From: Candidatus Manganitrophaceae bacterium
GTDB lineage: Bacteria; Nitrospirota; Nitrospiria; SBBL01; Manganitrophaceae
Assembly (NCBI GenBank): GCA_016200325.1
Contig: JACQEZ010000019.1
Location: 310,001-374,000, forward strand
DNA: 64,000 nucleotides
Direction of reading: 5' to 3'
The notes beneath the pieces were generated by a model. The model had not been told where the DNA came from. It did not search any database and saw only the letters and a list, made by a program, of their open reading frames with translations. The position numbers and the translations under genes were made by a program. Position 1 is the first letter of the stretch; the number at the start of each line of letters is the position of its first letter. This document shows positions 35,389-51,772 of the stretch, piece by piece.

Positions 35389-36153
35389 TCATTCTCCCTG
35401 CATCGCATCCATTGCACCCATTGCATCCATCGCATTATGGATCAGTGCCAGGAGCGCGACGCAGGCGGTGTCGGTGCGCAGCGTCCGGGGCCCCATGCCG
35501 ACCGGCTGGAACCGATGCTTCTTCAGCAGCTCTCTCTCGAAATCGTTCCACCCCCCCTCCGGCCCGACCGCCAGCAAAATCGGTCCTTCCCTCGCCGCCC
35601 GCACCGCCGCGCTCGCCGGCTGCGCCGCCGCAGGATCGGCCATCAGACGGAGTCCATTTTTAAAGAGGCGGTCGAGGCTATCTTCAACCAGCACCCGGAA
35701 CTGCCGATGGATCGACACGGCCGGCAGCCGGGTGTCGCGCGCCTGCTGCAGCCCTTCAATCAAGAGCGGCCGGTAGACGTCCGGCGCGAGCCAGTGGGTG
35801 TCGAAGTAGTTGCGCTCCACCCGCCCCGCGTTCGTCAGGAGGATCTGCCCGACGCCGAGGGCGGCGACCTGGGCCCAGATCCGCCGCATCACCTTCGGCC
35901 GGGGAAGCGCCAGGAGCAGGTCGACCCGCGGCCGGGGCGGAACGGCTCCGTCGAAGGCGCAACGCAGTCGAACGGTCCCCTCGCCGACCGACTGCACGGT
36001 GCCGACGCCGCACGGACCGTCGAGGAGCCCGACCCGCACCCCCTCTCCCGACACGACCTTCAGGACATTGAGCAGATGCGCGGCGCGGGGCCCCGACAGG
36101 GTCACCTCGCCGGAATCGCCGACTTCACTCCGCTCCAGAATAATGAGATTCAT
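35389..36153 (-). CDS. rsmE: 16S rRNA m3U1498 methyltransferase RsmE
   Basis: A 254-residue SPOUT methyltransferase. N-terminal PUA-like part (AAHLLNVLKVVSGEGVRVGL), then the knot: RVERNYFDTHWLAPDVYRPL, LIEGLQQARDT, ILLAVGPEGGWNDFERELLK (SAM loop GPEGG) and LGPRTLRTDTA-like MGPRTLRTDTACVALLAL. I chose the start at 36153 (MNLIILERSEV). It methylates N3 of U1498 of 16S rRNA. It is oriented convergently with DUF2267. The C-terminus carries a short DAMGAMDAM repeat. Confidence 0.93.
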   Translation of the reverse strand: MNLIILERSEVGDSGEVTLSGPRAAHLLNVLKVVSGEGVRVGLLDGPCGVGTVQSVGEGTVRLRCAFDGAVPPRPRVDLLLALPRPKVMRRIWAQVAALGVGQILLTNAGRVERNYFDTHWLAPDVYRPLLIEGLQQARDTRLPAVSIHRQFRVLVEDSLDRLFKNGLRLMADPAAAQPASAAVRAAREGPILLAVGPEGGWNDFERELLKKHRFQPVGMGPRTLRTDTACVALLALIHNAMDAMGAMDAMQGE

Positions 36154-36708
36154 CAAAACCCTTCCGTAGGATATCTGCTTGCAAGGCGAGCGCTTCGCCC
36201 CTTGCCGCATCTGAGCAGCCATCCCGATCTTGCCGCTCTCCATTCGGACACGGAGAGCGATTATACCCCTCCTGCCGGAAGGAGGAAAGAAGGAAGATCC
36301 GCTCGCCCCCTCCGGTCAAGAACCGTCCTAATCTAGTGTTCTTTGTGTTTGAATTAAAAAGGGGCGTAAGCGCCTGCGCGTCAAGGGCGCACCACGCCCC
36401 CCCCACCCTGCCGCGTTTTATATCAGACGTCCCATCGACCGAATCAGGTCACCTGTCGAAGCACCATCCGCGGTGCCCTCCCGCGCGTGGTGCAAGTTGT
36501 GACCGTAAGGGGGGAGCCGGGGGGGATCTCTCCCCCCGGCTGCACGGGGAGGCCGGAGGGGGCCGGGCAGTCGGCCCCCACGGTGGGGGGTGGGGTAAAA
36601 CCCCACGAACTTAGGCAGCCATTGATTTCGATCGCATTTGGGGGTATCCTCTTGCTCCGTCCGCTGTGCAATTTCTTTTTTTGCGAGGCTCCGCTCCCGA
36701 GATCAACC
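36154..36708. other. Intergenic region with no gene and a GC-rich hairpin cluster
   Basis: About 555 bp between divergent rsmE and the dioxygenase gene. The frames here have no ribosome sites and overlap on both strands. It holds three strong hairpins at 36515-36606 (listed separately) and direct-like C and G runs around 36395-36420. Confidence 0.65.
36515..36606. ncRNA. Cluster of three strong hairpins, candidate structured RNA or element
   Basis: Hairpin 1: AGCCGGGGGG-type arm (36515-36526) with its complement 36531-36541, loop about 4 nt. Hairpin 2: GGGGGCCG (36558-36565), loop GGCAGT, CGGCCCCC (36572-36579). Hairpin 3: GTGGGGT (36590-36596), loop AAA, ACCCCAC (36600-36606). Their density is far above what surrounds them. 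No T run follows, so these are not simple terminators. The strand is unknown; whether it is an RNA, a mobile-element end or an extragenic palindrome is open. Confidence 0.45.
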
Positions 36709-37452
36709 ATGCCGACCACGATTCTCTCTCCCCCCTTTTCACCCCCCGACCAGCTGCCGAAGGCGCTGCGCGCCCACGGCTATGCCGTCCTCCCCCCCGC
36801 CGGCGTCTGCGCGCTCGCACGCTGTCAGCCCGCGGACTTGGAAGCGCTCCAGCCGAGCTGGAACGACCTGCCGTTCGATGCCTACCTGAAAGACAGCGGC
36901 CGCTATCGGCGCCGGCGGCACGCCTCTTTTGTCGTCGACGGCATCGACGTCAAGCAGGTGCCCCACCGGGCGCATTGGCAGCCGCTCGACTACAATGCCC
37001 TGCATGGCGGGATGAAGCGGCTCTTCGAGCCGATCGCGCCGGCGACCGTCGCGGCGCCGGTCTGGGCGCCGCTGCTTCAGGCGATCGGTCAGATCTGCTC
37101 AGAGATGAAAAATCCGCAGCCCTGGTATGTCGAGGCGCACCAGTTCCGGATCGACACGGCGCACGGCATCGGCCGGCCGACGCCGGAAGGGGCGCACCGC
37201 GATGGGGTCGATTTTGTAGCGATCTTTTTGGTGGGGCGGGTGAATATCAAAGGGGGGGAGAGCCGGATCTTCGAAGCGGCCGGCTCGAACGGCAAGCGGT
37301 TTACGCTCACGGAGCCCTGGACGCTGCTGCTCCTAGACGACACGCGGGTAATACACGAATCGACGCCGATTCTCCCGACGGCGGAGGGGGGCTATCGGGA
37401 TACGTTGGTCCTGACCTATCGGGCCGGCGGGTTCCAGGAAGAGGGGTCGTGA
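36709..37452 (+). CDS. 2OG-Fe(II) dioxygenase family protein (BsmA-like)
   Basis: A 247-residue protein beginning MPTTILSPPFSPPD. It carries VDGIDVKQVPHRAHWQPLDY, EAHQFRIDTAHGIGRPTPEG, then GAHRDGVDFVAIFLVGRVNI (H-x-D iron ligands). Further on are LLLLDDTRVIHESTPI, with the distal His, and YRDTLVLTYRAGG. This pattern matches 2OG-Fe dioxygenases of the BsmA type, some of which hydroxylate free amino acids. The substrate is not known. The start is taken at 36709 because upstream frames run through the hairpin cluster. Confidence 0.82.
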   Translation: MPTTILSPPFSPPDQLPKALRAHGYAVLPPAGVCALARCQPADLEALQPSWNDLPFDAYLKDSGRYRRRRHASFVVDGIDVKQVPHRAHWQPLDYNALHGGMKRLFEPIAPATVAAPVWAPLLQAIGQICSEMKNPQPWYVEAHQFRIDTAHGIGRPTPEGAHRDGVDFVAIFLVGRVNIKGGESRIFEAAGSNGKRFTLTEPWTLLLLDDTRVIHESTPILPTAEGGYRDTLVLTYRAGGFQEEGS

Positions 37453-37555
37453 TCGACCTCCTTGGGAGCCAGTTGGGAGCCGGTCGGAACGACCGCTTTT
37501 CATCCGGCTTGGTCTTCATGGGATGTTCGAAACGCTCGGGACCGGCCGATCCTCC

Positions 37556-37834
37556 TCAGCCGAGGTAGCCTTTCTTCGAGGGATCATAGACGAGCGCGCC
37601 GTCGCGGACCAGCTCAATCAAATATTCATCGACCAGCTTGTTGAAATTTTTCTGCTTGGCCGCGCGCTCGAACGGCAGGAGGTCCGGCGCCTCGCTCCGG
37701 TAGCAGAGGGGAATCAACGGATGTTCCTGCAGCGCCGCGCGAATCGCGTCGCGGGAAAGGGCCTCGCCCCCGCGCCGAACCAGCTCGACAATAAAACTTT
37801 TTACTTCGTCTAAACGTTCCGCTTCTGGATGCAT
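37556..37834 (-). CDS. Small unknown protein
   Basis: A 92-residue helical, charged, soluble protein: MHPEAERLDEVKSFIVELVR, FERAAKQKNFNKLVDEYLIE, and a winged-like GALVYDPSKKGYLG end. The alternation of helices and a C-terminal beta hairpin would suit a small winged-helix, but I recognise no family. It converges with the dioxygenase gene. AT content is average. Confidence 0.6.
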   Translation of the reverse strand: MHPEAERLDEVKSFIVELVRRGGEALSRDAIRAALQEHPLIPLCYRSEAPDLLPFERAAKQKNFNKLVDEYLIELVRDGALVYDPSKKGYLG

Positions 37835-38086
37835 CAGCCGACCCCTTTTTATTTCCGCGAGTATACCATGAAGCCGTCAGCGGTGTCAGCGCCGAACGGT
37901 TCATCCCGTCGCCTCGCCTTTCTTATTTGATCTAGCGTATAGGATGTGTTAGAAAGGGAGGTGCCTTCGATCCCGCGGCGGAAACGCGGGGGTCTTAAGA
38001 CGGCGCGTCTTCCTCATTGATTCTTCCAGATCGACCTGCTTGTTCCAATCGATTCGTAAGCCCACCCTATATAAGGAGCGGCCCCG

Positions 38087-40734: not shown

Positions 40735-40749
40735 TGAAAACTCCTTTGT

Positions 40750-40822
40750 ACAAGAGATCGAACTCCTCCCAATGCGGCCTAAAGCTTGGGAAGCTCCTAC
40801 GCTACCACTGCGCTACTCCCGC
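40750..40822 (-). pseudogene. Degenerate tRNA-Gly (anticodon CCC)
   Basis: The minus strand from 40822 reads GCGGGAGTAGCGCAGTGGTA, the usual 5' half of tRNA-Gly. The D stem pairs (GCGC with GCGT). An anticodon arm GGAGC-TTCCCAA-GCTTT gives anticodon CCC. The T arm contains TTCGAT with only a 6-nt loop (AGGAG/CTCTT stem). The 3' acceptor strand that should pair with GCGGGAG is absent (TGTACAA instead). It is therefore a remnant, probably 3'-truncated by an insertion or deletion. Confidence 0.55.
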
Positions 40823-40943: not shown

Positions 40944-43900
40944 TTAAATTCCAGTGGGCGTATCCGAATCTACCCGTTTACCTCCACGAACCGCTTCAAA
41001 AATTTCCTTCGCAAGAATTTGAAATGCAGAACCTTGGAACTCGTGGTCCGCCATATAGCGCGTGACGATCTTATCGTTCTCGACCATGCGCTCGATCATG
41101 AAGTCTTCAATCAACTTCCGAATACCGAGCTCGAACTTGTCGAGTGGATTAGCAAGGGCGGTCTGGATCACGTGCTCGTCTTTACAGGCTTTCTCCTTAA
41201 TCTGCTGAAAGAAAAGTCGATCCTCCTCGGTGAACTGCGTGCCGAAGCGTTCGTTCAAAACCTGAATGATCTCGGATAGCGGCGCTTTCTCGTCCTTTGC
41301 CTTGCCGGTTCCCACTTCCGTTGGACTTTTCACATACTGCGCGTCCCCTTCCTTCAATTCGATCGCTCCGGAGAAAACACGTTCAAGCCGATAATATTGC
41401 AGACCTACTTCCTCACCCACTCTCACGATTTGCTCGTCACGATTCAACGGCAGATGTGGAAGTAGGAACTTTCCATAGCTGTATAGCATCTCCAGTTCGG
41501 GATCGGTATACGGAATGATCTGGCTCAAGAAAGCGTATACCTTTACATACCCGCCCAGCTTCTCTCGGAATTCTCTCCGCTTCTCTTCGTCAGTAATCGC
41601 TTTGAAGCGGTCCACTGCAGGTTGAAGGTGGCGCTGCATCCGGGCATGATCGGAGGGCGTCTGGCGCTCGGCGGGCTTATAGAAGATTTGCGCAAAGGCT
41701 TCGACCTCGCTCCAGTGATAGACCTGAGCCTGATCGAGTTCGTGCTTCAGCGTCTCCAGCTTGGATGGATCGGATGGCTCCTGAAGACCGGTCTTATCAT
41801 AATACGGTTTAAACGCTCGATAAATATTCTCCGCATCATTGACGAAATCGAGAACGAACGGAACGTCCTTTCCCGGAATCATCCGGTTCAAGCGAGAGAG
41901 CGTCTGCACCGCCTGAACACCGTCGAGCCGCTTATCAACATACATCGTGTGGAGCAGTGGCTGGTCAAAGCCGGTTTGATATTTATTTGCGACCAATAAG
42001 ATCTGATAGTCAGGAGAATCGAAGCGTTCGGGAAGTTGTGATTCACTGATCGGTTTACCCGTCACCAGGTCTATATTCATCCCAGGCTCGGTGTATTCTT
42101 GCTCCGTGTCCGGATCTTTGACGGTTCCGCTGAAGGCGACAAGTGGACGGATATCAGTGTACCCATGCTCCGCAATGTATTGATCGAAAGCGAGTTTGTA
42201 CCGCACAGCGTGCAGCCGCGAAGAGGTGACCACCATTGCCTTGGCACGCCCACCGAGCCGGTGCTTTACGCTCCAGCGAAAATGCTCCACCATCACTTCG
42301 GTCTTCTGCTCAATACTGTAAGGATGAATGCTCATGAATTTAGCAAGCGCCCGCACTGTTTTTTTCTTCGGGAGCTTTGGGTCCTCTTCGGCTGCTTTCA
42401 GCAATCGATAATACGTTTTGTACGTTGTATAGTTTGTCAGGACATCGAGGATGAAGCCTTCTTCAATCGCTTGCCGCATACTGTAGATATGAAACGCTTC
42501 CGGTTTGCCGCTCGCGCCGACGCGGCCGAACAGCTCGATCGTTTTCCCCTTCGGCGTTGCAGTGAAGGCAAAGAAACTAAGATTCTGTTGAGGTCCGCGG
42601 GACTGCATCACCTGGTTTAGCCGGTCTCCCCAATCCGCTTCCTCCTCATCGCTTTCTGTCGCAGCGCCGAGAATTGCCTTCAGCTCCCGCGCTGTCTCGC
42701 CGGTCTGGCTCGAATGGGCTTCATCTACAATCACCGCGTATTTTCTTGCTGCGATCGCCGCTTCCCACGCCTTGGCTTGCTGCTTCTCTTCTTCCGTCGC
42801 CTTCTCTCGACTCTCCGCGCCCGCGACATGGAGCAGGCCACGCAGGACGAAGGGGAACTTTTGCAATGTGGTGATCACAATCTTGGTTCCATCGACCAGG
42901 GCCGCCGCTAGCTGTTTCGAATCTTCATCAATCGCCTTCACGACCCCTTGGGCATGCTCGATCTGATAAATCGCGTCTTGAAGCTGCTGGTCCAGTATGC
43001 GGCGATCGGTGATCACGATGACGCAGTCGAATACTTTCTGGTCTTGCTGATTGTGAAGGCTCGCCAGCCGGTGCGACAGCCACGAAATGCTGTTCGTCTT
43101 CCCGCTCCCCGCGGAGTGTTGGATCAGATAGTATTGGCCGGGTCCCTCTTGCCGCGTCTCCGACACAACTTTCCGAACGGCGTCAAGCTGGTGATAACGG
43201 GGAAAGATCAGTGTCTCGCGGGTGATCCGCCGCTTGCCTCCTTGACCGTCATCCACTTTCTCTTCTTTCTTTTCGAGAAACATGAAGTGGCCGAGGATAT
43301 CGAGGAAGCTGTCGAACGGCAAGACTTCCTCCCAGAAGTAACCTGTTCGATAGCCGGAAGGGTGCTGCGGGTTGCCGGCACCGCACTGGACTTCACCGGG
43401 ATGGCTGCCTCTGTTAAAGGGCAAGAAGTGAGTCGCTTCCCCTCGCAGGCAGGTCGTCATATGAACTTCGTCGGGGTCGGCGGCGAAATGAACCAACGCC
43501 CTCGACTTGAACTGGAACAGCGGCGCGCGGGGGTCGCGATCTTCTCGATACTGCTTGACCGCATGGCGCCAGTTCTGGCCGGTGCCGGGATTCTTCAACT
43601 CGCAGGTGGCCGCAGGCAGACCGTTCACCGCAAAGAGCAGATCGATTGTGTCATTTTTCCCGGGATGGCAGGGCACCTGCCGGGTCACCGTCAGGCGGTT
43701 CTTTTCGAAGAGCGCCAACGTTTCATAGTTCAATCCGTGGGCGGGTTTGAAGTAGGCGAGGCGGAAGGTCTTTCCGTAGAACTTGAACCCGTGGCGTAGA
43801 ATATGGAGCGTTCCTTTAAGGTCGAGTTCTTTGACGAGGGTTGAGATAAGAATCGGCTCCAGCCCTTCGCCGTGCAGGCCTTTCATTTCGGCCCAGAGCT

Positions 43901-44054
43901 TCGGCTGGGTCTCTTGAAGGAAGGCGAACACCTGCGCCGGGAAGAGCGCCCGCTCCCCGTCCCATTCTATTTTCGCTCCGGCTGTCCAACCGGCGCGGAC
44001 CAGGAGGGTTTCTCCCACATAGGCTTCAAAGGCCCGTTCGGTGGTTTGCGACAT
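40944..44054 (-). CDS. hsdR: Type I restriction enzyme R subunit HsdR
   Basis: About 1036 residues from MSQTTERAFEAYVGETLLVR. The N-terminal nuclease domain contains DLLFAVNGLPAATCELKNPG (D...ELK). Helicase motifs follow: HSAGSGKTNSISWLSHRLA (Walker A), IVDEAHSSQTG (DEAH), FFAFTATPKGKT (motif III) and a second RecA domain with VANKYQTGFDQPLLHTMYVD and LSRLNRM. It translocates and cuts DNA when assembled with M and S subunits. Its start lies 4 nt after the stop of the PIN-domain gene. Alternative start 44114 is less likely. Confidence 0.93.
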   Translation of the reverse strand: MSQTTERAFEAYVGETLLVRAGWTAGAKIEWDGERALFPAQVFAFLQETQPKLWAEMKGLHGEGLEPILISTLVKELDLKGTLHILRHGFKFYGKTFRLAYFKPAHGLNYETLALFEKNRLTVTRQVPCHPGKNDTIDLLFAVNGLPAATCELKNPGTGQNWRHAVKQYREDRDPRAPLFQFKSRALVHFAADPDEVHMTTCLRGEATHFLPFNRGSHPGEVQCGAGNPQHPSGYRTGYFWEEVLPFDSFLDILGHFMFLEKKEEKVDDGQGGKRRITRETLIFPRYHQLDAVRKVVSETRQEGPGQYYLIQHSAGSGKTNSISWLSHRLASLHNQQDQKVFDCVIVITDRRILDQQLQDAIYQIEHAQGVVKAIDEDSKQLAAALVDGTKIVITTLQKFPFVLRGLLHVAGAESREKATEEEKQQAKAWEAAIAARKYAVIVDEAHSSQTGETARELKAILGAATESDEEEADWGDRLNQVMQSRGPQQNLSFFAFTATPKGKTIELFGRVGASGKPEAFHIYSMRQAIEEGFILDVLTNYTTYKTYYRLLKAAEEDPKLPKKKTVRALAKFMSIHPYSIEQKTEVMVEHFRWSVKHRLGGRAKAMVVTSSRLHAVRYKLAFDQYIAEHGYTDIRPLVAFSGTVKDPDTEQEYTEPGMNIDLVTGKPISESQLPERFDSPDYQILLVANKYQTGFDQPLLHTMYVDKRLDGVQAVQTLSRLNRMIPGKDVPFVLDFVNDAENIYRAFKPYYDKTGLQEPSDPSKLETLKHELDQAQVYHWSEVEAFAQIFYKPAERQTPSDHARMQRHLQPAVDRFKAITDEEKRREFREKLGGYVKVYAFLSQIIPYTDPELEMLYSYGKFLLPHLPLNRDEQIVRVGEEVGLQYYRLERVFSGAIELKEGDAQYVKSPTEVGTGKAKDEKAPLSEIIQVLNERFGTQFTEEDRLFFQQIKEKACKDEHVIQTALANPLDKFELGIRKLIEDFMIERMVENDKIVTRYMADHEFQGSAFQILAKEIFEAVRGGKRVDSDTPTGI

Positions 44055-44058
44055 GCCG

Positions 44059-44556
44059 TCACGCCCCTTTTGCGCCGAGGACAAATCGCGCCCGTTCTCT
44101 ACGCAGCATTTCATAAGGTGTCATGCACTTGATACTCAAGCCGATACAGACGTTCGGGATTTTGACCTTACGCACGGTTTCCGCGGCGACTTCATGCGTG
44201 ACCACGGTATGTTCGTGCGCGAGCGCTTGGGCGACAAGATAGTAGTCGGCGAGCTGTAAGAATGCATTGACCGCGGCGGCGCTGTATCCTTGGCCGGTGA
44301 CCCAGGTGCTCACCCTGTTCAGAGCGGGCAACATCTCCGCGTCGGGCGGCCTGAAAAAACCGGCCCCGCGCGCGGTCGTCCATTTCGCAAGGCCATCGTT
44401 CCCGGCGAGGAGCTCGTCGCCCACGCGCTCGATGCTGAAGACATTTCCCGCCGCATTTTCGGCGGCCAGCCAATCCCAAAACGCAGGGCAGAAGTCGAAT
44501 CCGTAGTGCAGATTTTTTGCTTGGATAAAGATGTTGGCGTCAAGGAGGTATCCCAT
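44059..44556 (-). CDS. DUF4411 PIN-domain toxin
   Basis: A 165-residue PIN-like protein: MGYLLDANIFIQAKNLHYGF (first catalytic Asp in LLDAN), FDFCPAFWDWLAAENAAG, VFSIERVGDELL and a late THEVAAE stretch. PIN ribonucleases typically cut tRNA or mRNA. The start codon overlaps the upstream immA stop (TGATG), which makes these a coupled pair. Such DUF4411-ImmA/HTH pairs are known as toxin-antitoxin-like modules. Here the pair sits between hsdS and hsdR. Confidence 0.85.
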   Translation of the reverse strand: MGYLLDANIFIQAKNLHYGFDFCPAFWDWLAAENAAGNVFSIERVGDELLAGNDGLAKWTTARGAGFFRPPDAEMLPALNRVSTWVTGQGYSAAAVNAFLQLADYYLVAQALAHEHTVVTHEVAAETVRKVKIPNVCIGLSIKCMTPYEMLRRERARFVLGAKGA

Positions 44557-45728
44557 CAGATGCGGAACCTCAGGCTTCGGCCCAACTCGTGGAAGGTTTC
44601 GATCTTCGAGATTCCGAGCAGGCGGAACGCGTCACGATAGAGGGTTTGGCCTTCCAGCGTGCTCTCGACCAGGGCACGCGCGAAACGTTTGCTGACACGC
44701 GCCGCCTGCGTGAGGTAGAAGTCTCCGCCGCTTCCCGCCGGCCGCGCAAGCAGCCGCTCCAACTCTGCGGCATATGCCTGATGAAATTCCGCTCGCGAGA
44801 ACCCTCCCGCGTCGAAGATCCGGCGGATGATGACGAGCGTGCTGACCTTGAAACGCCGCGCGAGCCGGCTGATTTCCAGCGCCGGATCTTCGTCCGCTCG
44901 AAACTCATCCCGCATCATTTGCAACGGCACCAGCAATTCCGCAGCGACCTGATTGCTCCATCTTTCCACAGCGTACCCGGCGGCTGGCACGTTTCGCGGA
45001 CTATCTATCACCTCCGCGGGATCGGAATTCGAGAGGGCGGACTCCCCAAGCCATAGGTGGGCCAGCTCATGGGCGAGGGTGAACATCTGCCCCGCCTTGG
45101 TGTCCCCGCCATTGATAAACACCAACGGCGCCAGAGCATCGGCCATTGCAAATCCGCGAAACTCGTTCGGATCGAGCCGTCGGGTGTTGTTATTCAGCAC
45201 AACGCCGCTGCACATGACCAGCGCGCCCAATGCGTCCGCCTGCGCGATGAAGTGACGCAGCGCTTCGGTCCACGTTGGGCAATCGCGGCGCGCGTCGAGA
45301 TCGAACCGGAGCGCCTGCCGCATCTGCTCGGCCGTCTCTTCCACCGGGCTGTCGAGACGAACGGAGCCGACGAACCGGCGTGGCTCGATGCCGGCGAATC
45401 CTGCATACTCGCGATACCACGCCTGCCGCTGCTGGCAGAGATAGATCATCTCCAGGAGGTTGGGGCTGGGCCGCGCAATTGATTCATTATTGATGGTGCG
45501 GAAATCGGGGATCGGGATTTCCTCAACGGGAGGTTCGGGGAGAAACAAGAACCCAATCGGCGTGTAAGTCGCCTTGGCAAACTTCTCCAACTGTTTGAGG
45601 GTCGGCTTAGCCTCTTCGACTTCCCAGAGATCAAGCTTGGGGAACCGGCCCATCAGCTCATCGAGGCTGAACCCCGCGCGCTCGCGCGCCCAGCGGAGCA
45701 ATTCCGGTTTGACATCCACTCGCATCAT
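44556..45728 (-). CDS. HTH-ImmA/IrrE protein, putative antitoxin of the PIN toxin
   Basis: A 390-residue protein. The N-terminal HTH-like part (LLRWARERAGFSLDELMGRF, PKLDLWEVEEAKPTLKQLEK) is followed by a middle domain and the zinc metallopeptidase motif HELAH in FTLAHELAHLWLGESALS (about residue 220). ERWSNQVAAELLVP supplies the third ligand region. Family members combine DNA binding and proteolysis and partner PIN toxins of the DUF4411 type. It follows the hsdS remnant by 26 bp and is cotranscribed with hsdM-hsdS-PIN-hsdR. Confidence 0.87.
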   Translation of the reverse strand: MMRVDVKPELLRWARERAGFSLDELMGRFPKLDLWEVEEAKPTLKQLEKFAKATYTPIGFLFLPEPPVEEIPIPDFRTINNESIARPSPNLLEMIYLCQQRQAWYREYAGFAGIEPRRFVGSVRLDSPVEETAEQMRQALRFDLDARRDCPTWTEALRHFIAQADALGALVMCSGVVLNNNTRRLDPNEFRGFAMADALAPLVFINGGDTKAGQMFTLAHELAHLWLGESALSNSDPAEVIDSPRNVPAAGYAVERWSNQVAAELLVPLQMMRDEFRADEDPALEISRLARRFKVSTLVIIRRIFDAGGFSRAEFHQAYAAELERLLARPAGSGGDFYLTQAARVSKRFARALVESTLEGQTLYRDAFRLLGISKIETFHELGRSLRFRI

Positions 45729-45754
45729 GTCTGTACTCTAGCGATCGCGCCGAC

Positions 45755-46504
45755 TTACGTCAAGGCGCTGCTTGCCGAAGCGGCCTTTCGGACATCGATC
45801 TTTCCCGTCACGGCGGCCGTGATCAGGGCGGTACGGTATTCCTGTAGGAGTTTGAGCAGAGAAGCAAATAGCCCATCTGTCTCGTCATTCATTACCTTGC
45901 GTTTCATCCCGGCAAGTCCATCTAGTTTGGCCATCTGTCTATCCAGAAACTCCGAGATCGCTTGCTGTTCCTTAATAGGAGGAATTGGTATCCACGCATC
46001 ACCAATTGCGCTCTTCGGCAGACCATAGCGCGTCACACCACTTGCTGAGATCTGGAACTGTTGGTTGATAGCGCAAGACTGGAAAGCACGCAGTAAATAA
46101 CGACCCAAGAGTATTGTCGCATGTGGTCGCACAATGGCAAGATGATAGCCACATACCAGGTCGGGGGCAGACTCCTCTACAAGTGCGGGGACTGCGATAT
46201 CGTTCCACTCCTCTGAATCCTTCGTGATGACGACATCCCCAACACGAAGCCCAAACCGGCGAATTTCCTCCGGGGTCGCAGTCGTCTCCATAAGACCCAT
46301 GTTAGGGCGAATGAATTCGTTATAGTAGACATCAGTGTAATTACAGAGTTGAACAGGTAGTTCATCCTCCGACGGCACTTTGTCCACACTACTAACCCAG
46401 TAGTTGGCAGATGTCTTGAGCCTCTTCACCTCCCAATGCTAAGGCACGTTGCCTAGCCATTCAATTCCACTCGATTTGTATTTTGGGTAGGTCGCGTGTC
46501 TCAT
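45755..46504 (-). pseudogene. hsdS: Half-size HsdS specificity subunit with an in-frame stop
   Basis: The frame starts with ATG 46504 overlapping the hsdM stop (ATGA) and reads MRHATYPKYKSSGIEWLGNV then P, the standard HsdS opening. TAG occupies codon 22 (46439-46441). HWEVKRLKT follows in the same frame and continues to the end. The rest has one target-recognition domain (about residues 30-165), the central IPIPPIKEQQAISEFLDRQM helix and the typical end EYRTALITAAVTGKIDV. Normal HsdS has two recognition domains and over 400 residues; here there are 249 codons. A GTG at 46429 might restart translation without the conserved N-terminus. Confidence 0.75.
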
Positions 46505-48600
46505 TTCGTCACATCCTTGAGTAAGTCCAGGATCTCATCTTCCAATGTCTTAATCTCCGACTCGATCTGTCCCAATGGCCGCGGCGGTTCATATCGGTAG
46601 AAGTGACGGTTGAGCGGAATCTCATAGCCAACTTTGGTCTTGCTGTGATCGATCCAGGCATCCGGGACATGCGGCAGCACCTCGCGCTTGAAGTACGCCT
46701 CGATGTTCTCCTTCAGGGGCACGCTTTCGGTATCTCGCAGTTCGGGATCTGGCTCCGGTTTGCCGTCACGGCCGCGGCAGATCTCGGCGGTTTCGTCCCG
46801 CTCACTAAGAGCGCTCAGCACCGCCTTCAGTTCCGGGGAGGCGAGGCGCACATTCTGTTCTCGTTCCATCTCATGGAGTTCGGTCAGGAAGGCGTTGCGA
46901 TCTTTGTAAAGCTTCTGGCCATTGGCCTTACCAAACGCGCGGAGTAGCGCGAGGATTGTTTCTTGCCGGTCCTTCCCGGCCGCGATCTCCTGGAGCCTGA
47001 TCTTTTCATTCTTCTTATTGCTGGCGGCGAGATTCTTGAACCCGCCCTCCTCCGCGATCCGCGCGATCCGTTCCTCCGTGGTCTGGAAGTTGAGCCGCAA
47101 TGGACGCTCGACGGTGATTTTGTGGAACCCGAAATCAGCATTGTCGAAGATTTTGCTCACGACAAGCGTCTTCTGGAGCCCGTCAATGATGAACGCGCGG
47201 GTCTCGCCGTCGCGGAAATTTCCGAAGACCCGGGTAATCTCGCCGATCTGGTCGGGTTCGCCCTCCTCTTTGTCGCCGATCTTGTTGCGCTTGTTGCCGA
47301 GGCTTTTCCGCATCTTCACATAGAATTGGCGCGCGTCGATAAGCTGAATTTTCCCCTTGCGTTCTTTTTCTTTCCGATTCGTGAGCACCCAGATATAAGT
47401 GGAGATGCCGGTATTGTAGAAAAGCTGGTCGGGCAGCGCGACCACGGCCTCCAGCCAGTTATTCTCAATGATCCATTGGCGAATGTTGCTCTCGCCGCTT
47501 CCCGCATCGCCGGTAAAGAGCGGAGAGCCGTTAAAGACAATCCCGATTCGGCTGCCGCCTTCTTTGAGCGTCCGCATCTTGGAAAGCATATGCTGAAGGA
47601 ACAGAAGCGAGCCGTCATTGATCCGGGGCAGCCCCGCGCCGAAACGGCCTTCGTAGCCGAGGGTGCGGTGCTCGTTTTCGATAAATTGCGCCTGCTGTTT
47701 CCACTCAACGCCGAAGGGAGGATTCGCCAGCATGTAGTCAAAGGTGCGCTTCTTCCCCTCCTTGTCTCGATCAAAACCATCTTTGGCAAAGCTGTCACCA
47801 AGGACGATGTTGTCGGCGTCTTCCCCTTTGATCAGCATGTCCGACTTGCAGACAGCCCAGGCTTCGTCGTTCCAATCCTGGCCGAAAAGGTGCGGGTTGG
47901 CCTCCGAGTTGAGATCTCGGATATATTTCTCGGCCACGGAGAGCATACCGCCCGTTCCACAGGCAGGATCGAAGATGGTCTTCACCACGTGACTGCGGCG
48001 AAGATCTTTCTCCGGTGAGAGAAGCAGGTTGACCATCAGCTTGATCACCTCGCGCGGGGTGAAGTGCTCCCCCGCTTCCTCGTTCGCCTGTTCCGCGCCG
48101 ATCCGGATGAGTTCTTCAAAGACATAGCCCATCTGAACGTTGTCCACTCGCTCAGGGGAAAGATCGACTCTCGCGAACGCCTTGATCACTTCATAGAGCA
48201 GATTCTTTTCAGCCATGCGGGCAATCTGCTGATCGAACGCAAAGCGATCCATGATATCGCGAACGTTTTTGGAAAACTTATTGATATAGCTATTGAGATT
48301 AGGGGCAAGCTGATTGAAGTCGTCAAGAAGTGTGGAGAAATCGAGCTTGGATAAATTATAGAACGGGCGGCCTGTCGTCTTCTGAAGCAGGCTTCGGACG
48401 ACGTTCTCCGGTTTTGTTTTGATCGCGGCGTGCTTCTTCAGCACCTCTGCCTTCGTCGGAGCAAGCAGACAATCGAAGCGGCGGAGGACAGTGAGCGGCA
48501 GAATAACCTTGCGGTACTCGTTCCGTTTGTAAGGACCACGGAGCAGGTTGCAAATGCTCCAAATAAAATTGGCAAGCTGGGAATGGGTCTCAGGGCTCAT
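46501..48600 (-). CDS. hsdM: Type I DNA methyltransferase subunit HsdM
   Basis: A 699-residue N6-adenine methyltransferase. The helical N-terminal domain (FIWSICNLLRGPYKRNEYRK) precedes motif I (FDPACGTGGMLSVAEKYI, about residue 215) and motif IV (LANPPFGVEWKQQAQF, about residue 300). EAGEHFTPREVIKLMVNLLL before motif I is typical. The long C-terminus ends with LKDVTK. It lies behind a copy of the promoter-bearing repeat at 48640-48709 and leads the operon. Confidence 0.93.
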   Translation of the reverse strand: MSPETHSQLANFIWSICNLLRGPYKRNEYRKVILPLTVLRRFDCLLAPTKAEVLKKHAAIKTKPENVVRSLLQKTTGRPFYNLSKLDFSTLLDDFNQLAPNLNSYINKFSKNVRDIMDRFAFDQQIARMAEKNLLYEVIKAFARVDLSPERVDNVQMGYVFEELIRIGAEQANEEAGEHFTPREVIKLMVNLLLSPEKDLRRSHVVKTIFDPACGTGGMLSVAEKYIRDLNSEANPHLFGQDWNDEAWAVCKSDMLIKGEDADNIVLGDSFAKDGFDRDKEGKKRTFDYMLANPPFGVEWKQQAQFIENEHRTLGYEGRFGAGLPRINDGSLLFLQHMLSKMRTLKEGGSRIGIVFNGSPLFTGDAGSGESNIRQWIIENNWLEAVVALPDQLFYNTGISTYIWVLTNRKEKERKGKIQLIDARQFYVKMRKSLGNKRNKIGDKEEGEPDQIGEITRVFGNFRDGETRAFIIDGLQKTLVVSKIFDNADFGFHKITVERPLRLNFQTTEERIARIAEEGGFKNLAASNKKNEKIRLQEIAAGKDRQETILALLRAFGKANGQKLYKDRNAFLTELHEMEREQNVRLASPELKAVLSALSERDETAEICRGRDGKPEPDPELRDTESVPLKENIEAYFKREVLPHVPDAWIDHSKTKVGYEIPLNRHFYRYEPPRPLGQIESEIKTLEDEILDLLKDVTK

Positions 48601-48639: not shown

Positions 48640-48709
48640 GCCCGCTCCTGGTATTTCTCTGGGGGATGAAACGAATGGCTTACTATATCAAATCGGAGAA
48701 AAAGATCAA
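48640..48709 (-). promoter_or_regulatory. Promoter-bearing repeat, copy 1 (upstream of hsdM)
   Basis: On the minus strand it contains TTGATC (48709-48704), a 16-bp spacer and TATAGT (48687-48682), followed by CATTCGTTTCATCCCCCAGA then GAAATACCAGGAGCG. About 85 percent identical by eye to copy 2 at 49684-49755. It lies about 40 bp before the hsdM start codon. Confidence 0.65.
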
Positions 48710-48764
48710 CCGGAAATGTACGGAGGCAATCGGTCAATTAGGAATGACGAATGAGCAATCGGAG

Positions 48765-49609: not shown

Positions 49610-49644
49610 AAATTGAAGGAGAGGAATAGGCTTCGTAAAGATCT

Positions 49645-49680
49645 TGGGGTCAAGTCTTGAATTTTGAGATTCAAGAATAT
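49645..49680 (+). repeat. Right copy of the 30-bp motif bracketing the Mrr/hsd region
   Basis: Reads tggggtcaagtcttgaattt followed by tgagattcaagaatat. It resembles 39795-39830 in sequence and orientation. It also contains an 8-bp inverted repeat TCTTGAAT-TTTGAG-ATTCAAGA. Confidence 0.5.
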
Positions 49681-49683
49681 AGT

Positions 49684-49755
49684 GCCCGGCTCCTGGTATT
49701 TCTCTGGGGGATGAAACGAATGGCCTAATATAGATAATCGGAAGGAAAAGTTCAA
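49684..49755 (-). promoter_or_regulatory. Promoter-bearing repeat, copy 2 (upstream of the DUF1016 fragment)
   Basis: On the minus strand: TTGAAC (49755-49750), 17-bp spacer, TATATT (49732-49727), then CATTCGTTTCATCCCCCAGA and GAAATACCAGGAGCC. The 3' part is base-for-base that of copy 1 over more than 35 positions. Confidence 0.65.
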
Positions 49756-49844: not shown

Positions 49845-50081
49845 TCATTTCTTGGCCCGTTTGCTCGCGTGCAAAACGGTAAAACCGATGACCTCATCGC
49901 CTTCATACCGGACGATCACATCGTCGTCCGTCATTTCGCTGTCAGTGGCGTAGCTCGGCTTCTTGTAATTCACATACAGTGTGTCCGCCTCGGCGTCGTA
50001 CGTCAGCCAGACCGCGTGCTGTGGCGCCCGGTTGACGGCCGGAATCAGTTTCAAATATTCCTGAAAATCGGTTATGGCCAT
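49845..50081 (-). CDS. DUF2283 protein
   Basis: A 78-residue protein with the DUF2283 core: AVWLTYDAEADTLYVNYKKP, then VIVRYEGDEVIGFTVLHASK. The function is unknown; DUF2283 proteins are often next to small toxin-like genes. It overlaps the end of the upstream gene (50072) by 10 nt, which suggests a toxin-antitoxin-like pair. Confidence 0.8.
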   Translation of the reverse strand: MAITDFQEYLKLIPAVNRAPQHAVWLTYDAEADTLYVNYKKPSYATDSEMTDDDVIVRYEGDEVIGFTVLHASKRAKK

Positions 50082-50353
50082 ACCTGTCTCCTCTTTGCAA
50101 GCGACCGGACTCTTCGAGTCAGGAACGCGGTAATGATAAAACCGTCATTCGACCCTTCCCGATAGACAACGACAAGATGCTTGCTCTCTTCTAGTTCTCG
50201 GACGGCGATCAGGATACGCTCCGGCTGCAACACGGTCGCCACTACCTCCGAGCGTGATCCGGCCAGCTCACAATGCTCTTCCGTGATATGAGCCCATCGT
50301 TCATCAGTGAGTCGAATGGCGACACCGTTCTTGGAAGTCACCCGATCAATCAT
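50072..50353 (-). CDS. Small BECR-fold-like protein, putative toxin partner of DUF2283
   Basis: A 93-residue protein: VAIRLTDERWAHITEEHCEL, VVATVLQPERILIA and HLVVVYREGSNDGFIITAFL. The DERWxHI...H and the late beta strands VVYR...GFIITAF resemble small RelE-like or barnase/EndoU-like nuclease families. The identification is tentative. It is first of the pair and overlaps the DUF2283 gene by 10 nt. Confidence 0.6.
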   Translation of the reverse strand: MIDRVTSKNGVAIRLTDERWAHITEEHCELAGSRSEVVATVLQPERILIAVRELEESKHLVVVYREGSNDGFIITAFLTRRVRSLAKRRQVWP

Positions 50354-51041
50354 CGCACCCTGCCGGCTCTTTTCCTTATTTTTGGATTAATCTCAATTCG
50401 ATCTATGACCTAGACATAGGTCTACTTTAACTTATTACATGGACTTGAGTACTAAGCTAAAAATATTGTCCAAATTTGTTTTAGGTTAATATTGTCAGCA
50501 CCTTCAGTCTTATACTAAAGCACAGTTTGACACTATATACAGTTAGTACTTGCTAACACTTGCTAACACCACTTAGCACTCACTAACACTATGGACACTC
50601 TCTAGCAGGTGTTAGACTCACTAAGCACAGTTTGACTCACTATATGCAGTTAGTACTGCTAACACTTGCTAACACTGCTTAGCACGTCTTAATTAAATGC
50701 AAATTGCGGCTTACACCGAAGGTAAACCTTGAGCCACTATAATAGACTCTACAAAAATTTTCAATGAACTAACTTCTGATTGGGATGGACAACTTTTTTG
50801 GACTGGGTAGTTTTTCAGAGGTAATCGTTTAATTAAGAATTGAAGTATGGGTAGGGAGAATCAGATCGTCAACCAGTGGGGAGCTTCACCCCATCACGCC
50901 GTCGCGCTTTCGTCTTCATCAGAAATGCAGAATGCGCTATTTCCTCACCTTCGCACACGAGGATCAGAAGTAGAGCGTTTAAGAAAAGAACCTTTTCAAG
51001 AAAGAAGAAGAAACGAAGGTAGAGATAATCGGTGCAGTGGG
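50354..51041. other. 688-bp AT-rich gene-free region
   Basis: Much lower in GC than the window. It contains a GACCTA-GACA-TAGGTC hairpin (50407-50422), the duplicated heptamer array (50521-50688) and a short AT stretch before the next gene. The reading frames are short and lack ribosome sites. Confidence 0.7.
50521..50688. repeat. Duplicated array of 10-bp-phased heptamers
   Basis: First unit: a 30-bp lead (cacagtttgacactatatac then agttagtact), with heptamers TTAGTAC 50543, CTAACAC 50553, CTAACAC 50563, TTAGCAC 50573 and CTAACAC 50583, each exactly 10 bp apart. Second unit: the same lead at 50626-50657, with TTAGTAC 50650, CTAACAC 50659, CTAACAC 50669 and TTAGCAC 50679. An inverted GTGTTAG is at 50609. 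The units are about 106 bp apart. The phasing equals one helical turn, as in iterons or regulator-binding arrays. Confidence 0.75.
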
Positions 51042-51611
51042 TTAAGCCGTCGCGCGCTGTTTATTGAGCAGATGGGTGACCAGCTGGTCGACCCGCTCCA
51101 CCAGACCGTCCATGCCGGACGACGTTCCTTTGTTGACGTAGCTGGCGGGGGCAAAGACGCCGAGCTGTTTTTTTAAAGTGTCGTCGCACTTTCGCGCGGA
51201 GAAGAAGAGAATCGGCGACCGGGGGACCTGGTACTTCCCTTCGAGCGCCCGCATCATCCGGGCGGCGGCGATCCCATCCATCACCGGCATCTCCAGATCG
51301 AGGATCACCAGGTCGACCGGCTGATGGTCGGCGAGCCGCGCATTGAAGAGGCCGATAAACTCCTGTCCATTGCCGGCGGTGATCACGGTGTCGGCGAGCC
51401 CCTTGTTCACCAACATCCCCTTCAGCAGGTCGTTGACGAACGCCACATCGTCGACGGTGAGGATGCACTTGGCCGCCGAGGCGGGAAGCGGCTTCGCCCC
51501 CAAAATAAATCCGCAGTAGATGCAGGTGAGCTCCTCGTTGCCGTCGCGGGTGATCCGATTCCACGGAACATTCTCACCGCAGCAGATACAGAACTTCGTC
51601 TCCTCCGCCAT
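51042..51611 (-). CDS. Response regulator with an N-terminal zinc ribbon
   Basis: A 189-residue protein. The N-terminus has FCICCGENVPWNR and ELTCIYCGFILG, a four-cysteine zinc ribbon, and is followed by a REC domain: ILTVDDVAFVNDLLKGML (acidic pair), VDLVILDLEMPVMDGIAAAR (phosphoacceptor Asp) and PILFFSARKCDDTLKKQL. No output domain is present; zinc ribbon and REC may bind a partner. A copy of the promoter repeat lies directly upstream. The Shine-Dalgarno GGAGG is about 6 nt before ATG 51611. Confidence 0.85.
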   Translation of the reverse strand: MAEETKFCICCGENVPWNRITRDGNEELTCIYCGFILGAKPLPASAAKCILTVDDVAFVNDLLKGMLVNKGLADTVITAGNGQEFIGLFNARLADHQPVDLVILDLEMPVMDGIAAARMMRALEGKYQVPRSPILFFSARKCDDTLKKQLGVFAPASYVNKGTSSGMDGLVERVDQLVTHLLNKQRATA

Positions 51612-51616
51612 ACAAC

Positions 51617-51680
51617 CTCCGGCTCCTGATATTTCTTTGGGGGATGAAGGTAACTATAACAAATCGGAAGAAAAGAGCAA
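51617..51680 (-). promoter_or_regulatory. Promoter-bearing repeat, copy 3 (upstream of the zinc-ribbon regulator)
   Basis: On the minus strand: TTGCTC (51680-51675), 16-bp spacer, TATAGT (51658-51653), then TTCATCCCCCAAAGAAATAT and CAGGAGCCGGAG. It is shorter and more diverged than copies 1 and 2, with a 5-bp deletion, but keeps both hexamers. Confidence 0.6.
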
Positions 51681-51772
51681 GGTCGGTCAATCCTACAATG
51701 CGGAAGGCGGAAGGAGGAAAAATCAATCGGCGTCCTTCTGATTTGAACGGGGAGGAGGGTGGGATGAGAACC

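Follow-up and report, generated by a model that had tools for sequence, protein, structure and literature searches.

In a 64,000-nucleotide stretch of a contig from a Candidatus Manganitrophaceae bacterium (the window), we found a real array of phased heptamers that has been duplicated, falls within the variable region of a defense gene hotspot, and is bounded by junctions on both sides. It is a modest finding, limited to one genome. Rather than a replication origin, the array is most likely either a leftover, putative site of protein binding or plain spacer DNA that has been duplicated. We tentatively favor the interpretation that it represents a putative orphan array of cooperative operator-type binding sites acquired as part of a cassette; neutral slippage plus duplication ranks just behind as nearly as likely.

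The array consists of nine YTARYAC heptamers in two series, which together with their leads span positions 50514 to 50691, and is organized as follows:

50543 to 50589, plus strand: series 1, five heptamers (TTAGTAC, CTAACAC, CTAACAC, TTAGCAC, and CTAACAC) starting at 50543, 50553, 50563, 50573, and 50583, all steps 10 bp
50650 to 50685, plus strand: series 2, four heptamers (TTAGTAC, CTAACAC, CTAACAC, and TTAGCAC) starting at 50650, 50659, 50669, and 50679, with steps of 9, 10, and 10 bp
50609 to 50615, minus strand: lone reverse heptamer (GTGTTAG on the plus strand)
50514 to 50579, plus strand: copy A, an ~30-bp lead (CTAAAGCACAGTTTGACACTATATACAG) and four heptamers
50620 to 50685, plus strand: copy B, the lead and four heptamers, 106 bp from copy A, start to start

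An earlier, sequence-only reading had described the heptamers as phased at exactly one helical turn. This holds for the steps of series 1 but not for the 9-bp step of series 2, and it is slightly overstated, as 10.0 bp falls 0.5 bp short of the 10.5-bp turn. That reading correctly recognized the same ~30-bp lead 5' of each series (50514 to 50579 aligns with 50620 to 50685 with three substitutions and three indels) and missed both the reverse heptamer at 50609 and the reverse complementarity of TTAG and CTAA, such that the array can also be read as GTTAG/CTAAC half-sites in mixed orientation.

Copies A and B (66 bp each) agree at 61 of the 64 positions that can be paired, the alignment (68 columns) also containing three small indels; its score of 96 compares with a maximum of 28 among 300 dinucleotide shuffles. 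None of the six copy-to-copy events (three substitutions and three indels) touches the 28 heptamer positions; all occur in the remaining 40 columns (p about 0.04). The heptamers persist while the spacers change, and the variation inside the heptamers comprises transitions only. The copy-to-copy pattern weakly favors constraint on the heptamers; it is the only sign of such constraint and a marginal signal, though the test is not wholly circular because the heptamer register was defined within series and not between copies. Of local shuffles, 0.15% showed a periodicity as high as that at lag 10 when all lags from 5 to 15 were allowed, but because other loci across the window score equally high at other lags, periodicity alone is not exceptional. 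Runs of at least three heptamers were seen in 0 of 20,000 trials of a Markov simulation, for a motif defined post hoc. When 460 kb of the contig was scanned with a stricter four-unit test, this was the sole 10- or 11-bp array besides pyrimidine-rich runs; 9-bp tandem arrays are present elsewhere on the same contig.

The array occupies a gap (50354 to 51041) that, as originally described, is 688 bp long, lacks a credible open reading frame (ORF), and is AT rich, with 40% GC versus mostly 50 to 65% GC in the window. The features in and around this gap are as follows:

51042 to 51611, minus strand: conserved gene for a response regulator, marking the right-hand edge of the hotspot
50893 to 50908, plus strand: remnant with similarity to the response-regulator gene 3' end, an att-like or duplication scar
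50695 to 50786, minus strand: 92-bp piece matched at 79% in the relative G002, there upstream of an unrelated 139- to 147-aa ORF
50736 to 50764, minus strand: promoter-like site facing left into the array (consensus match only)
50354 to 50408, minus strand: leader of the 93-aa gene, homologous to G005
50072 to 50353, minus strand: 93-aa gene without a Pfam or NCBIfam match, product likely RNase toxin-like
49845 to 50081, minus strand: DUF2283 partner gene, product likely antitoxin-like

In a comparison with the relatives G002 to G005, positions 35428 to 37844 and 51046 to 51648 are conserved, whereas most of the interval between them differs in each genome; on this evidence, we regard the interval as a defense hotspot with the array in its variable part. 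Five genomes of the genus carry different restriction/defense cassettes beyond the conserved response-regulator gene, and the hotspot starts at the stop codon of this gene in five genomes. To the left of the gap, every assigned gene is on the minus strand; these genes encode the toxin-like protein and its DUF2283 partner, a YhcG-type nuclease, HsdM, a short HsdS, an M78 peptidase-type protein, a DUF4411 protein, HsdR, and an Mrr-type nuclease. The G005 homolog of the toxin-like protein (100 aa; 96% identity) has 7 more residues in mid-protein, and the version encoded at 50072 to 50353, being short of these, may possibly be inactive. The type I restriction cluster (40944 to 48600; hsdM, an hsdS of 224 aa, and hsdR) has the M78 peptidase-DUF4411 pair embedded in it, an arrangement resembling RmrTA-type insertions by PADLOC model names. 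An Rfam tRNA match (33.5 bits; window 40749 to 40822, minus strand), for which ARAGORN makes no call, lies between the Mrr and hsdR genes and may mark a degenerate tRNA.

Window positions 49848 to 50408 match G005 at 93%, and since this homology stops at 50408, the array side is a junction. On the other side, the 92-bp piece at 50695 to 50786 contains a sigma-70-like TTGAAA-17-TATAGT; G002 has this promoter-like piece before a different ORF, and here the array lies downstream of the site on the minus strand. The array, itself without a relative, thus sits between the G005 junction and the G002-matching piece, and these flanking pieces (the toxin gene leader in G005 and the promoter-like piece in G002) recur in relatives, never with the array. 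TATAGT elements on the minus strand (consensus match only) adjoin the first heptamer of each series. A CIRCE half-site (TTAGCACTC) was rejected, no partner half-site being evident in the sequence.

Fragments of the regulator 3' end are found beside cassettes (L036, 1311 to 1423; G005, C1:2784132 to 2784169; and window 50893 to 50908), a pattern suggestive of insertion at duplicated copies of the regulator or of their replacement; a check of the hotspot for a core site found these fragments recurring and no clean empty site. Also recurrent is a promoter-plus-leader module (TTGATC-16-TATAGT with the conserved leader CATCCCCCAGAGAAATACCAGGAG), which resembles a portable promoter: it precedes the regulator gene in each of the four genomes included in its alignment and precedes cassette genes in all five hotspot genomes. 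In G003, the module is on one side of a cassette and a regulator 3'-end fragment is on the other, as though the interior of duplicated regulator genes had been exchanged for cassettes. The sites of the module are as follows:

Window: 48641 to 48760, 49634 to 49755, and 51619 to 51690
Relatives: L033, 18523 to 18640; L035, 3722 to 3890; L036, 2538 to 2652; L034, 16746 to 16812

A search of related genomes and plasmids, as the sequence-only reading had proposed, found the array, and not merely its phase, to be missing from relatives. A degenerate three-unit pattern scanned over 270 genomes of the class recovered it in none of the other 269, a 21-base pattern had no match in GTDB contigs or IMG/VR, and BLAST searches against phages and plasmids returned nothing credible. 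The unit has no second copy in the genome at ≤3 mismatches in 18; hence, of the satellite-like element suggested earlier, the dispersed form is excluded, and a single-locus minisatellite is possible. Upstream of 22 other homologs of the toxin-like gene inspected, we found no heptamer array, with an isolated heptamer in G005 only; because homologs in the class lack it, the array is not the operator of that family, and a toxin-antitoxin operator was rejected. Viral matches to GTTAGTACnGCTAACAC were set aside as mostly a 17-base form in repetitive DNA that, in our judgment, resembles VSTANT-type coding repeats, as were relaxed decamer matches in GTDB and IMG/VR, mainly simple CTAACAC decamer repeats, which with a looser pattern appear in many unrelated genomes.

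The looser pattern also returned arrays in other genomes that place the heptamer, in phase, in different settings; none of these has the TTAG/CTAA arrangement. In Spirochaete and Proteobacteria metagenome-assembled genomes (L070, 57 to 103; L072, 2006 to 2052; and L092, 4386 to 4412), decamer arrays of GTGTTAGNNN directly precede SLFN_AlbA_2 genes and are possible autoregulatory operators; thus, such a layout can occur at promoters. They share with the present array the CTAACAC heptamer, 10-bp phase, and intergenic position but are uniform and abut the start codon, and the AlbA_2 gene is absent from the genome studied here. An AlbA_2 operator was rejected on the absence of the family, and two loci inspected in relatives had no such array. 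In L074 (4084 to 4110) and L101 (5641 to 5669), a phased CTAACAC array immediately follows the 3' end of a tyrosine integrase gene; these arrays are candidate attP arm sites.

Under the operator interpretation, the heptamers would be cis-acting noncoding sites for one sequence-specific DNA-binding protein loading cooperatively along one face of the helix, and the array would work like a repressor or activator operator. It would have entered the defense hotspot within the control region of a cassette, been doubled via an ~105-bp tandem duplication, and come to lie upstream of the leftward-transcribed toxin-like and type I restriction genes. We infer that a protein binds the array and controls leftward transcription and that the cognate regulator was lost or is encoded elsewhere. 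No fitting regulator gene lies nearby, the sole candidate being an M78/HTH-type protein (44556 to 45728). We counted in favor of this interpretation the unchanged heptamers amid changing spacers and lead, the rarity of the array in 460 kb, the promoter-like site upstream on the minus strand, the TATAGT elements, and the SLFN_AlbA_2 layouts; counted against it were the lack of a fitting regulator gene nearby, the marginal constraint signal, the single genomic copy, the absence in relatives, the toxin-like gene homologs without the array, and the one 9-bp step. The cooperative regulator array suggested by the sequence-only reading thus fits the anatomy and the copy-to-copy change, though weakly. 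A more specific version, in which the array is the platform of an undescribed regulator of the leftward toxin/type I restriction cluster and its doubling gives a switch-like response, strikes us as a long shot. The neutral alternative, to which we give almost comparable weight, posits that slippage created a 10-bp minisatellite, that a segment of ~105 bp was then duplicated, and that the product is decaying in a gene-free seam of a hotspot with continual cassette gain and loss. It accords with the confinement to one genome, the decamer repeats of unrelated genomes, the 9-bp array elsewhere on the contig, and the mosaic of fragments forming the seam; the constancy of heptamers between copies while spacers and lead altered, and the restriction of within-heptamer variation to transitions, speak against it.

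The other explanations are less likely. One, which we consider unlikely, is that the heptamers are arm-type integrase/excisionase sites of an integrative element inserted at the response-regulator gene 3' end. Like the arm-type sites of tyrosine recombinases in attP, they are short, tandem, and close to what appears to be an integration hotspot at the 3' end of a gene; also in favor are the start of the hotspot at the regulator stop codon in five genomes, the regulator fragments in G003, G005, and at 50893, and the integrase-linked arrays of L074 and L101. However, no integrase was found in the island, all integrase matches of the genome being outside the window (the nearest is partial, 1.4 kb left of its start), and the array is 200 to 375 bp from the remnant core, with no demonstrated core or second arm set. 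Less probable still is an integrated plasmid or satellite as the source of the repeats, which would then be iterons of a replication origin or a partition site (ParR/RHH-type), although several ~10- to 11-bp phased repeats of about a helical turn in two clusters with AT-rich DNA resemble RHH operator arrays and split parC layouts, and ParR contacts 10-bp repeats (PMC5016525). Unlike those systems, the array has 3-bp spacers and mixed TTAG/CTAA forms, no plasmid context, and no adjacent motor gene, with no RHH centromere-binding or repressor gene in the island or gap. The replication origin proposed by the sequence-only reading is likewise unsupported: repeats beside AT-rich DNA recall iteron-type origins, but the units of such origins are usually ~17 to 22 bp rather than 10 bp, no Rep or initiator gene was found among the genes tested in 37 to 51 kb, no parA/M, parR, helicase-primase, or relaxase gene was found in the island, and there is no similarity to plasmids or phages. 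Least credible is a decayed gene or a structured RNA, such as a type III antitoxin RNA preceding the toxin-like gene: tandem repeats do lie upstream of that gene, and 42 bp weakly match coding DNA in G025, but folding is no better than that of shuffles on both strands, and there is no Rfam match. A pseudogene was rejected, as a tblastn search with the G025 protein gave only a 14-residue match with stops.

These observations caution that phased repeats without a partner gene should not be called origins, and the portable promoter module of the hotspot may merit more follow-up than the array itself. If functional, the array would offer a regulatory handle on a defense cluster in a lineage with little genetics; mainly, it shows orphan control DNA building up in defense hotspots.
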